Under the pieces are notes generated by a model. The model saw nothing but the letters and a program-made list of their open reading frames with translations, did no database searches and was not told where the DNA came from. Made by a program: the position numbers and the translations under genes. DNA of 34,455 nt from Candidatus Kapaibacterium sp. (lineage in GTDB: Bacteria > Bacteroidota > Ignavibacteria > Palsa-1295): NCBI GenBank assembly GCA_017882165.1, contig JADGPZ010000014.1, forward strand, positions 1 through 34,455, in the 5' to 3' direction. Positions 1,024 through 4,344 of this stretch are shown piece after piece. Numbering within the stretch: position 1 is the stretch's first letter; the number at the start of each line of letters is the position of its first letter.

Positions 1024-4000
1024 ATGAAACACGCGAACACCGGAATATTCCTGCTACTGCTTCTCGCTTCGAGCACAAAGGCGCAAGTTCCCCGCTTCGA
1101 AGAGAATAGAGGGCAGTGGGACGCATGCGCAAAGTACCTGCTACGCTCGGGCAACGTGAATCTCTGGATCACCGACTCGGGGATGGTCTATGATCTCCAC
1201 AGCATTCAGCACTCTGAGCCAACACTGTCATTCCCGCGAACGCGGGAATCCAGGTTTCGTGAGGTTTATCGTATGGGTCTGGATTCCCGGCTCGCGCCCA
1301 CGCTTCGCGGGAATGACAATTACGAGCACGCAAGCGGACACGATTCGATCACAAGAATCGGCCACGTTGTCCGTATGTCCTTCTTGCACACTGGAGAGCC
1401 ACGCGTAGTTGCTTCCGAAGCGGAGTCGGGCACGACGAATTATTTCATCGGCAGCGATCCAAAGAAGTGGGCAACCGGCGTTCGCTCGTTCCAGGGTGTA
1501 ACGGTTCAGAACCTCTATCCTGGTATCGACGCCGTATTCTCTCTCGATCGTGGCGAACCTCGCTATGATCTGGTGATCGAACCGGGTTCCGATCCCTCGC
1601 AGATCGAAATGGCGATCGACGGCGCGGATAGCATTGCACTGGCCGGTCCGAACACGCTCGTAATAAGAACTTCGATGGGCAATATCGAAGAGCATGCGTT
1701 GCTTGCCTATCAGGATGCGGACGGCGTGCGCCGGCCCGTTGAGTGTGCATTCCAAATCTCGGACGGAAATCGGATTTCATTTCACGTTGGTGTGTTCGAT
1801 CGTTCCAAGCGGCTCGTGATCGACCCGCTCATTTACTCGACGTACCTCGGTGGTTCCGCTCACAGCTACGGCAGTGCAATCGCCGTCGATCGATCGGGCA
1901 ATGCGTTCGTCACCGGCACAACGTACGCGACAGACTTTCCCGTAACTGCCGGAGCGTATCAGTCATCCAATAATGGCGCGCCGGGATACAACGTGTTTAT
2001 CACGAAGCTCAATCGAGGTGGGACTAATGTGCTCTACTCGACCTATCTCGGAGGTTCGGAAGGAAACTGGGGCGATGCGGGCACCGGGATTGCTATCGAC
2101 ACGGCGGGCAATGCCTACGTGACTGGCTTCACGAATTCAACGGACTTTCCGACAACGCCAGGAGCACTTCAAAGAAGGAGCAAATCTACCACTTACAATT
2201 ACGGCAATGCCTTCGTCGCAAAACTAAATGCGACCGGCACCGCGCTGCTCTACTCGACATACTTAGGCGGATCGGATGGCTATTTCGATGGCGATGGCGA
2301 AACCGCGTCCGGCATCGCGGTTGATTCGATTGGAGAAGCGTATGTGATTGGCACCAGTTCGTCTTCTGATTTTCCCACCACGAAGGGGGCATTTCAGACC
2401 AAGAATCCCGCGTTCTCATACAACATTGAAAGTGATGGCCGGTCGGCGTTCGTCACGAAGCTGAATGCGCGGGGTAACGGACTGATCTATTCGACCTATC
2501 TTGGTGGCTCGAAGTCCCCTCCACCGTCTCTGCCGGGACTTGCGCCGAGCGGGGGAGCAGCCATCGCGCTGGACAGATCTGGTAATGCGTTCGTGACCGG
2601 ATGGACCGCCGCGATCGACTTCCCAGTCACTCCGGGGGCCTATCGAACTTCGAACGGTAGCGATGAAGTGCTTGCGTTTGTAACGAAGCTCAATGCGTCA
2701 GGAACGGGCCTTGTTTATTCCACCTATTTGGGTGGTTCGGGCTACAAAAACACCACCGAGGGCGATGTGCCTTCGGGTATTGCAATCGATTCCGTTGGAG
2801 AAGCTTTCGTCACGGGCGGGACCGAGTCCTCTGATTTTCCGGTCACACCTGGCGCCTTCCAATCCACCAATCACGCGCTCTCGAATGCGTTCGTCACGAA
2901 GCTGAATGCAGCGGGGACCGCGCTCGTCTATTCGACCTATCTTGGCGGATCGGGCCATGACGCCGCGAGCAGCATCGCGATCGACCGCGCGGGAAATGCC
3001 TTGATTGCGGGCTCCACATCATCGAGTGATTTTCCCGTCGTTCCGGGCGTCATCGAGTTCTTCAATCCTAACAAGGGATATCGATCTGGCTTTATCACCA
3101 AAATCAACACGACCGGATCGTCACTCATCTACTCAACGTATTTGGGTGGCTCTGGATACGATCAGGCAACCAGTATCGCCGTCGATTCTGGTGGTAGCGT
3201 CTTTGTAACGGGTGCGGCGGGTTCCCCGGATTTTCCGATCACTGCGGGCGCATTTCAAACGACCACTCCCGATCTACACGGAAGCGCCTTCGTCACCAAA
3301 CTCTCGCCGCTAACATTGTATCTTGTCGCCGATTCATTGCATGATCTCGGTGTGGGTTCGCTCTGCCGCGTTGTCGATACCACGATCACGCTCACCAATG
3401 CCGGCACGGACACACTGCTCATCAAACACATTGAACTCACGGGCCGAGGGTATGCGATGGCTCCGCAGCAAGACTCCGTGCTGCTCCTTCCGGGCGCGAC
3501 GAGGACTGTTATACTCGAGTACCATCCGATCCTTGTCGGCTCCGACACTGCCATCCTCACGGTTGCGACCAACGCCGCCAACGATAGCATGATGACGATC
3601 CAGTTTGTGGCAAGGACTGGAACGACACCATTACTGCACGTTCTGTCTGCACTCACAAAGATAAGCGTGGCAGCATCGGACACAACGACGCTGCTGCTGA
3701 GTCCAGACATTGCCGTCTCCAACCTCGGCTTGAACTCACTCGAGTTTACCATCCATTGGAATAGCGATCTGTTGACGCCAATTAGCATCACAAGCGCGGT
3801 GCCGGGCGCGAATTTGAGTATAACATCGACGACGACGGACGACCTGACAAGCCTGCACCTTACACTTACGGGTACAAACATGACGCTTGATCCGAGCCAG
3901 CCGATCGCTCAGATTGTCTATCAAGCGTCCATCGCTGATTCTGCATCGTCACAAATCATGGTCGGCAATCCCGTCTTGAATGGTGGGGCCGATTCGTCGT

Positions 4001-4344
4001 ATGCGCGTTGTACGCTGGCTGCCAGCGGTAGCTCGACGATGTTCTCGCTACAATTCGGTTGCCGCGATTCTCTGATGATGGAGGCGCTCAATCAATCGCT
4101 CCGGTTTGACATCGTTGGTATTTATCCTGATCCGGCATCGTCGTTTGTGCGTGTCGAATCCAACTTCTCCGGCCCAGCATCTTTCGAACTCTTCGATCCG
4201 CTCGGCAGGCCTGTCTCATCACAGCCATTGCTTTCGGCTGGTGATTTCATTTTTGACACACACCTGTTGCCAGATGGAGTCTATACTGTCGTCGCAAAGA
4301 GCAATGGGCAGGCAGTGCGCGGTCATTTCGTGATCGGACGGTAG
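1024..4344 (+). CDS. SBBP beta-propeller T9SS cargo protein, 1106 aa
   Basis: The ATG at 1024 gives a clean signal peptide (MKHANTGIFLLLLLASSTKA, then QVPRFEENRGQWD). The frame is open upstream to 697, but that part overlaps the preceding gene and is rejected. Residues ~20-265 match the N-terminal domain usual in SBBP proteins (FEENRGQWD...). Residues ~270-760 hold seven SBBP units, each with YSTYLGGS, an AIAVDSxGNAFVTG stretch, DFPxTxGAxQ and FVTKLN, enough for a closed seven-bladed propeller. An ASPM/Hydin-like Ig domain (~765-865), a cohesin-like domain (~870-1005) and a T9SS sorting domain (VGIYPDPASS, LLPDGVYTVVAKSNG) follow. Residues ~68-99 are encoded by an inserted palindromic element (see repeat). 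It is probably a large surface or secreted protein; no ligand or enzymatic residues are recognisable. Confidence 0.92.
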   Translation: MKHANTGIFLLLLLASSTKAQVPRFEENRGQWDACAKYLLRSGNVNLWITDSGMVYDLHSIQHSEPTLSFPRTRESRFREVYRMGLDSRLAPTLRGNDNYEHASGHDSITRIGHVVRMSFLHTGEPRVVASEAESGTTNYFIGSDPKKWATGVRSFQGVTVQNLYPGIDAVFSLDRGEPRYDLVIEPGSDPSQIEMAIDGADSIALAGPNTLVIRTSMGNIEEHALLAYQDADGVRRPVECAFQISDGNRISFHVGVFDRSKRLVIDPLIYSTYLGGSAHSYGSAIAVDRSGNAFVTGTTYATDFPVTAGAYQSSNNGAPGYNVFITKLNRGGTNVLYSTYLGGSEGNWGDAGTGIAIDTAGNAYVTGFTNSTDFPTTPGALQRRSKSTTYNYGNAFVAKLNATGTALLYSTYLGGSDGYFDGDGETASGIAVDSIGEAYVIGTSSSSDFPTTKGAFQTKNPAFSYNIESDGRSAFVTKLNARGNGLIYSTYLGGSKSPPPSLPGLAPSGGAAIALDRSGNAFVTGWTAAIDFPVTPGAYRTSNGSDEVLAFVTKLNASGTGLVYSTYLGGSGYKNTTEGDVPSGIAIDSVGEAFVTGGTESSDFPVTPGAFQSTNHALSNAFVTKLNAAGTALVYSTYLGGSGHDAASSIAIDRAGNALIAGSTSSSDFPVVPGVIEFFNPNKGYRSGFITKINTTGSSLIYSTYLGGSGYDQATSIAVDSGGSVFVTGAAGSPDFPITAGAFQTTTPDLHGSAFVTKLSPLTLYLVADSLHDLGVGSLCRVVDTTITLTNAGTDTLLIKHIELTGRGYAMAPQQDSVLLLPGATRTVILEYHPILVGSDTAILTVATNAANDSMMTIQFVARTGTTPLLHVLSALTKISVAASDTTTLLLSPDIAVSNLGLNSLEFTIHWNSDLLTPISITSAVPGANLSITSTTTDDLTSLHLTLTGTNMTLDPSQPIAQIVYQASIADSASSQIMVGNPVLNGGADSSYARCTLAASGSSTMFSLQFGCRDSLMMEALNQSLRFDIVGIYPDPASSFVRVESNFSGPASFELFDPLGRPVSSQPLLSAGDFIFDTHLLPDGVYTVVAKSNGQAVRGHFVIGR
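1226..1318. repeat. In-frame double-palindrome (REP/RPE-like) element inside the SBBP gene
   Basis: The left arm 1226-1253 begins TGTCATTCCCGCGAA and ends GGGAATCCAG. The right arm 1279-1318 is its inverse, starting CTGGATTCCCG and ending CGCGGGAATGACA. The left arm is itself a hairpin (ATTCCCGCG, AA loop, CGCGGGAAT). The element spans 93 bp, a multiple of three, and is read through without a stop as the Arg-rich peptide FPRTRESRF...LDSRLAPTLRGND. The flanking protein sequence is the poorly conserved N-terminal domain. Repeats with the TCATTCCCGCGAAxGCGGGAATCCAG-like consensus are known in many bacterial genomes as extragenic palindromes, and in-gene insertion resembles Rickettsia palindromic elements. 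The family assignment is inference. Confidence 0.88.

Follow-up and report, generated by a model that had tools for sequence, protein, structure and literature searches.

Palindromic repeats that are read in frame inside protein genes were initially described as a peculiarity of Rickettsia. The Rickettsia palindromic elements RPE-1 to RPE-7 occur in frame in unrelated genes, nearly half of those of R. conorii being genic (PMC3767692, PMC10969869), and orthologous genes can carry different RPE groups (PMC3767692). One of them, RPE-6 of R. conorii, belongs together with dRS3 of Neisseria to the CGTC-1 REP superfamily. In-frame REPs within ORFs have been reported for CGTC repeats, for which no linked transposase is known (PMC3733652). 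Two further systems are comparable. REPINs are inverted REP pairs with a spacer that form one hairpin, and they are tied to a RAYT gene adjoining the same REP (PMC3116915). MITEs, such as the 107-bp Correia element, ERIC and YPAL, are small mobile repeats that can be fused in frame with ORFs; for instance, a YPAL copy makes up part of a signal peptide (PMC2229807).

The stretch of DNA analysed here (34,455 nucleotides, hereafter the window) corresponds to the 34-kb contig G000:C189 in the draft genome of a Candidatus Kapaibacterium sp., which comprises 3.46 Mb in 249 contigs. The host gene is an intact open reading frame (1024-4341) coding for a protein of 1106 residues with a signal-peptide-like N-terminus. 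The protein matches the Pfam families DUF7948 and SBBP (six beta-propeller repeats); Ig-like and Por_Secre-tail matches are below the Pfam cut-off. The features of the locus are:

1024 to 4344, plus strand: host gene for an exported 1106-residue protein, from Pfam matches and the translation
1096 to 1830, plus strand: DUF7948 domain (residues 25-269) into which the element is inserted, matched by Pfam without a break over profile positions 1-214
1226 to 1318, no strand: whole element of 93 bp or 31 codons, inserted in frame; two CGTC/TGTC-tagged REP hairpins arranged head to head (HH)
1226 to 1253, plus strand: left REP with tag TGTC, stem ATTCCCGC, loop GAAC, stem GCGGGAAT and tail CCAG, after the CGTC-1 definition in PMC3733652
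1254 to 1278, no strand: variable spacer between both REPs, differing from copy to copy where the arms are conserved
1279 to 1318, minus strand: right REP with tag TGTC, stem ATTCCCG, enlarged loop, stem CGGGAAT and tail CCAG
1225 to 1317, plus strand: element-encoded peptide LSFPRTRESRFREVYRMGLDSRLAPTLRGND, codons 68-98, in the length-variable DUF7948 loop between VYD and GHVV

The original prediction described a 93-bp inverted pair of hairpins that keeps the reading frame, and the sequence, the arms and the frame are all as it stated. The outer sequences of the pair are TGTCATTCCCGCG...CGCGGGAATGACA, and its layout is TGTCATTCCCGCGAACGCGGGAATCCAG - 25 nt - CTGGATTCCCGGCTCGCGCCCACGCTTCGCGGGAATGACA. 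As a single strand, the element has a fold energy of -53.3 kcal/mol. Its first base is the second position of codon 68, and the protein gains 31 residues from it (68-98). The right arm carries an enlarged loop instead of the usual 4-nt loop and its stem pairs over 7 bp; this arm type is also present in several further copies of the family. The repeat arm is far beyond chance, a 27-mer of it having no match in 100 shuffles of the window. A search of Rfam with the element gave no family match, and a literature search for its own sequence returned nothing relevant.

In its sequence features, the element fits a CGTC-1-type REP dimer of REPIN-like organization and would belong to the published superfamily that includes RPE-6 and dRS3. 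The terminal tag, CGTC or TGTC by definition, is TGTC in both window arms and in 148 of 158 arms overall. The 8-bp stem starting with AT is found in the left arm (ATTCCCGC/GCGGGAAT), the right arm having 7 bp. The 4-nt loop is GAAC in the left arm and four is the commonest loop length (85/136 parsed arms), from which the right arm departs. The CCA tail is CCAG in both arms and is conserved in 130 of the 136 parsed arms. Most copies (88/130) are HH dimers, none of the 31 Y1 transposase loci scanned revealed a dedicated repeat-flanked transposase, and occasional copies lie in frame within ORFs. As in the RPE class, these ORFs are unrelated protein genes: the window gene, a dehydrogenase, an AddB-like nuclease and PBP4. 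Since the arms conform to the definition of CGTC-1 REPs, a group that includes RPE-6, the comparison with Rickettsia palindromic elements comes close to membership, and the resemblance first proposed is more than an analogy, the kinship with RPE-6 being that of the published grouping.

There are also differences. The host lineage of the window family is a different one, an uncultured Ignavibacteria/Kapabacteria-type genus of Bacteroidota, and one arm type of the family has the enlarged loop ..CGTGGGCGCGAGC... Unlike the RPEs (PMC3767692, PMC10969869), the family does not live in a reduced intracellular genome and only about 3% of its copies are genic. In contrast to REPINs, no linkage to a RAYT gene was found for it, and it differs from the Correia, ERIC and YPAL MITEs by the absence of a target-site duplication and by its termini and architecture.

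The element is repeated, as had been anticipated, both in its own genome, with 95 blastn matches, and across the genus, with 130 copies. Its 12-mer head, allowing at most one mismatch, occurs 92 times in the genome of the window versus 5 times for a reversed control pattern, and the 23 hairpin elements retrieved from this genome differ in their flanks. A search of 61 genomes gave arm counts of 61 (G003), 33 (G000, the genome of the window), 22 (G002), 19 (G006), 16 (G005), 4 (G001) and 2 (G004); the arm is common in the genus, and the rest of the class has few copies of it or none. All genomes in the genus comparison are metagenome assemblies. The 130 copies examined come from these seven congeners, those of G002 being among the matches listed. 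A copy was called gene-internal when it lay in an open frame with at least 30 codons on each side, using inspection and coding scores whose codon usage was trained on the long ORFs of the same loci. Insertion in frame into a gene is real at the window, but it applies to a small minority of the family, 4 of 130 copies with the window's own included. The other copies (about 97%) are in 5' regions or between genes, or yielded no convincing frame. A further hairpin family of CGTC-tag style, GTCATTGCGAG...GACGAAGCAATC, was seen at L017:1540-1575 and at loci of G003, and it once directly adjoins a window-family copy.

A first search of the genome contigs with the SBBP protein gave no match. In 15 aligned DUF7948 homologues, the peptide LSFPRTRESRFREVYRMGLDSRLAPTLRGND is absent from all 15, as expected from the proposed insertion, and the loop between VYD and GHVV has 13-39 residues versus 58 in the window protein. 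The suggestion that the element entered a variable part of the N-terminal domain thus agrees with a length-variable DUF7948 loop. The nearest homologues of the window gene are at most about 48% identical over DUF7948; given this and the variability of the loop, they do not reveal exactly what preceded the insertion.

A matching empty site, as expected of an orthologue lacking exactly the inserted residues, is seen for a sister copy in PBP4; for the window gene, the homologues offer none at the nucleotide level. The PBP4 gene (Peptidase_S13) of G005 (C33) carries a 96-bp window-family copy inside its signal peptide (L188:2093-2186), contributing MLCLMLILWIPAFAGM. From the initial Met to the motif LDSLF there are 37 codons in the empty gene of G006, and 18 codons before plus 19 after the element in G005. 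This appears to be the clearest sister copy, the two G005 flanks together equalling the length of the empty gene. Because the orthologues have diverged (43% identity), the exactness of the insertion is deduced from length. The element codes for the only hydrophobic stretch of the G005 signal peptide: the best 12-residue hydropathy is 2.56 with the element, -0.12 without it and 2.30 in the empty G006 gene. The original hydrophobic core may thus have been replaced by the element.

The two remaining in-frame copies are in the genome of the window. In an FAD-oxidase_C/Fer4/CCG dehydrogenase (FAD/Fe-S; C220), the element codes for VIPAKAGIQAPSQPLQYPNLDPRLAPTLRGDD between KF and LHCHH, in a different frame from that of the window copy. 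About 10 loop residues gave way to this element, which measures 98 bp including its T...A ends, so that clean insertion does not describe all cases. In an AddB-like nuclease (C94), half an element, ..GLDSRLAPTLRGNDKSERGND, lies in a linker where orthologues are shorter.

With respect to movement, the boundary T...A is conserved in 84 and 83 of the 88 HH pairs. A target-site duplication was rejected for the window family, since none recurs in the 88 pairs at any offset tested. The T...A ends without duplication, together with the PBP4 site, suggest that insertion leaves no duplication, in the manner of tyrosine transposases (IS200/IS605, RAYT). Both IS200-type and RAYT-like genes exist in the genus (RAYT-like L034 scores below the cut-off, L369 and L374 above it). 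Mobilization of a REPIN by a linked RAYT was rejected, as no RAYT gene is flanked by window-family REPs and no copy lies within about 1.5 kb of L034, L369 or L374. Among the 31 Y1 transposase loci, one IS200-type gene (L364) has a pair about 430 bp away and the others have none. No reliable link between a transposase gene and the family was found, a situation published for CGTC repeats (PMC3733652). Selection for stop-free elements was also rejected: copies have 2.65 open frames each, no more than shuffles (3.09) or random genomic stretches (2.93). This lack of enrichment indicates that tolerance comes from the insertion site and selection, not from the design of the element.

The window element is therefore very probably a non-autonomous CGTC-1-type REP dimer that spread through the genus and inserted in a flexible loop of a secreted protein. 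Its hairpin would have been mobilized in trans by a tyrosine (IS200/IS605 or RAYT-like) transposase, and the dimer, so spread, would have entered the flexible, length-variable loop of the exported protein. The length of 31 codons and a stop-free frame would have kept the host gene open, and the cell would presumably make the protein with its 31-residue decoration, which is most likely neutral.

Other explanations have to be weighed against this one. The element could be mainly an RNA hairpin acting in mRNA stability, attenuation or ribosome pausing, its position in the coding sequence being regulatory. The very stable fold, the majority of copies outside genes and the view that REPs are transcribed and act as RNA (PMC3733652) agree with such a role. 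However, the decorated genes share neither position nor function, insertions are in loops with the frame kept, Rfam holds no match and homologues do without the element, so that this explanation is unlikely. The peptide might instead have been exapted and contribute to the function of the host protein, as the hydrophobic signal-peptide core that PBP4 of G005 owes to the element could suggest. In the window gene, however, the loop varies in length among homologues without the peptide and nothing suggests a function, and selection is not measurable in a single copy; exaptation at this locus is considered improbable.

Inverted ends and compact size would also suit a MITE derived from a classical DDE transposon, whose transposase would recognize those ends and move it. 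The absence of a recurring duplication in the 88 pairs and of extra codons at the PBP4 insertion speaks against it, and each arm by itself is a REP hairpin that fits CGTC-1, which makes this origin very unlikely. Finally, repeats can mislead assemblers and the genome is a draft, so the element could be an assembly artefact, or ordinary native coding sequence, that resembles a repeat. Yet Pfam aligns DUF7948 continuously across the element, which makes a chimeric assembly unlikely at this point, independent assemblies have the same repeat in frame in genes that are unrelated, and shuffling predicts no occurrence of the arm. An artefact or chance resemblance is extremely improbable, and the inserted REP dimer is retained as the preferred reading.

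Other palindrome families of the genus enter genes as well. The dehydrogenase loop that holds a window-family copy in G000 contains GGCGGGGAAACCCCGCCGCTA in G001 and CTCCTCTGATAAGAGGAGGGGG in G003, both of which are repeat families; the CTCCTCTGATAAGAGGAGGGGG family is also in a second loop of the enzyme in G003 and, diverged, in G002. The loci concerned are:

L126:1498-2922 (G001), L128 (G003), L125 (G000) and L129 (G002): orthologous FAD/Fe-S dehydrogenases with differing palindrome families

None of 32 sequences from other bacteria has an insert in this loop (alignment A2; one has a single extra residue). In the modelled G003 dehydrogenase, residues 361-380 have a pLDDT of about 45-58 and loop 1 of about 52-66, the neighbouring core being above 90; the insertion loop is thus predicted with low confidence, although most of the model's core exceeds 90. 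A search of the PDB with the dehydrogenase half gave no match.

An untagged palindrome family (CCTCCTCT/AGAGGAGG), written CCCCCTCCTCT-loop-AGAGGAGGGGGCTGGGGGGTGGTG, is absent outside this genus among the 61 genomes. About 32 of its 44 sites are in frame inside genes, as judged by ORF, codon score and inspection, a count in which a few borderline cases at N-termini were decided by eye. According to family models or solved homologues, its hosts include DnaG, TsaD, QueA, CoaBC, IspE, XseA, Lnt, Mfd, Cas1, UbiE and a XerD-like recombinase; an E1 dehydrogenase and a GH38 mannosidase are further in-frame hosts. Its loci include:

L239:1501-1522, L401:1982-2001, L404, L407, L415, L416, L417, L418, L328, L324, L242, L240, L234 and L237: untagged palindrome

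In the Cas1 of a type II CRISPR system, two congeners have an in-frame inverted pair of this palindrome at the same place (L412:2000-2091 and L416:1980-2071). It also lies at apparently the same site of a CCG-type-motif protein in G003 (L402:1959-1979) and G004 (L413:2001-2021), by either an old common insertion or a repeated hit. A GTAG-tagged REP palindrome, TAGCGGCGCGGTTTCCGCGCC, is in frame three times in a large protein (L337:1435-2217) and once in an acyltransferase-like linker (L332:2843-2864). Tandem heptanucleotide repeats are likewise read in frame, QHSALSTQHSALSTQHSAL in the XerD-like protein of L242 (residues about 80-100) and CCCTATACCCTATACCC in a linker of the L340 dehydrogenase. 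When all palindrome families of the genus are counted, the host list overlaps with that of the RPEs in QueA, a recB/AddB-type nuclease and a penicillin-binding protein.

With moderate confidence, we propose that several unrelated palindrome families (CGTC-tagged, GTAG-tagged and untagged CCTCCTCT/AGAGGAGG) repeatedly enter conserved genes in frame, that they converge on the loop of one enzyme across species and that one of them took over a signal peptide. The genus would be a free-living counterpart of Rickettsia, and the untagged family a mobile palindrome that is mainly protein-coding.

In-frame palindromes are naturally attributed to relaxed selection in reduced intracellular genomes. This genus makes that explanation doubtful, since it has genomes of 3.5-4 Mb, intact housekeeping genes and several element families and shows the same thing. 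It also offers natural tests of insertion tolerance in DnaG, TsaD, Mfd, QueA, CoaBC, IspE and Cas1. The empty and filled PBP4 genes bear on how CGTC repeats move, because they indicate insertion with neither duplication nor loss. The window element belongs to a known kind, the CGTC-1 REPs, and its setting is unusually rich.
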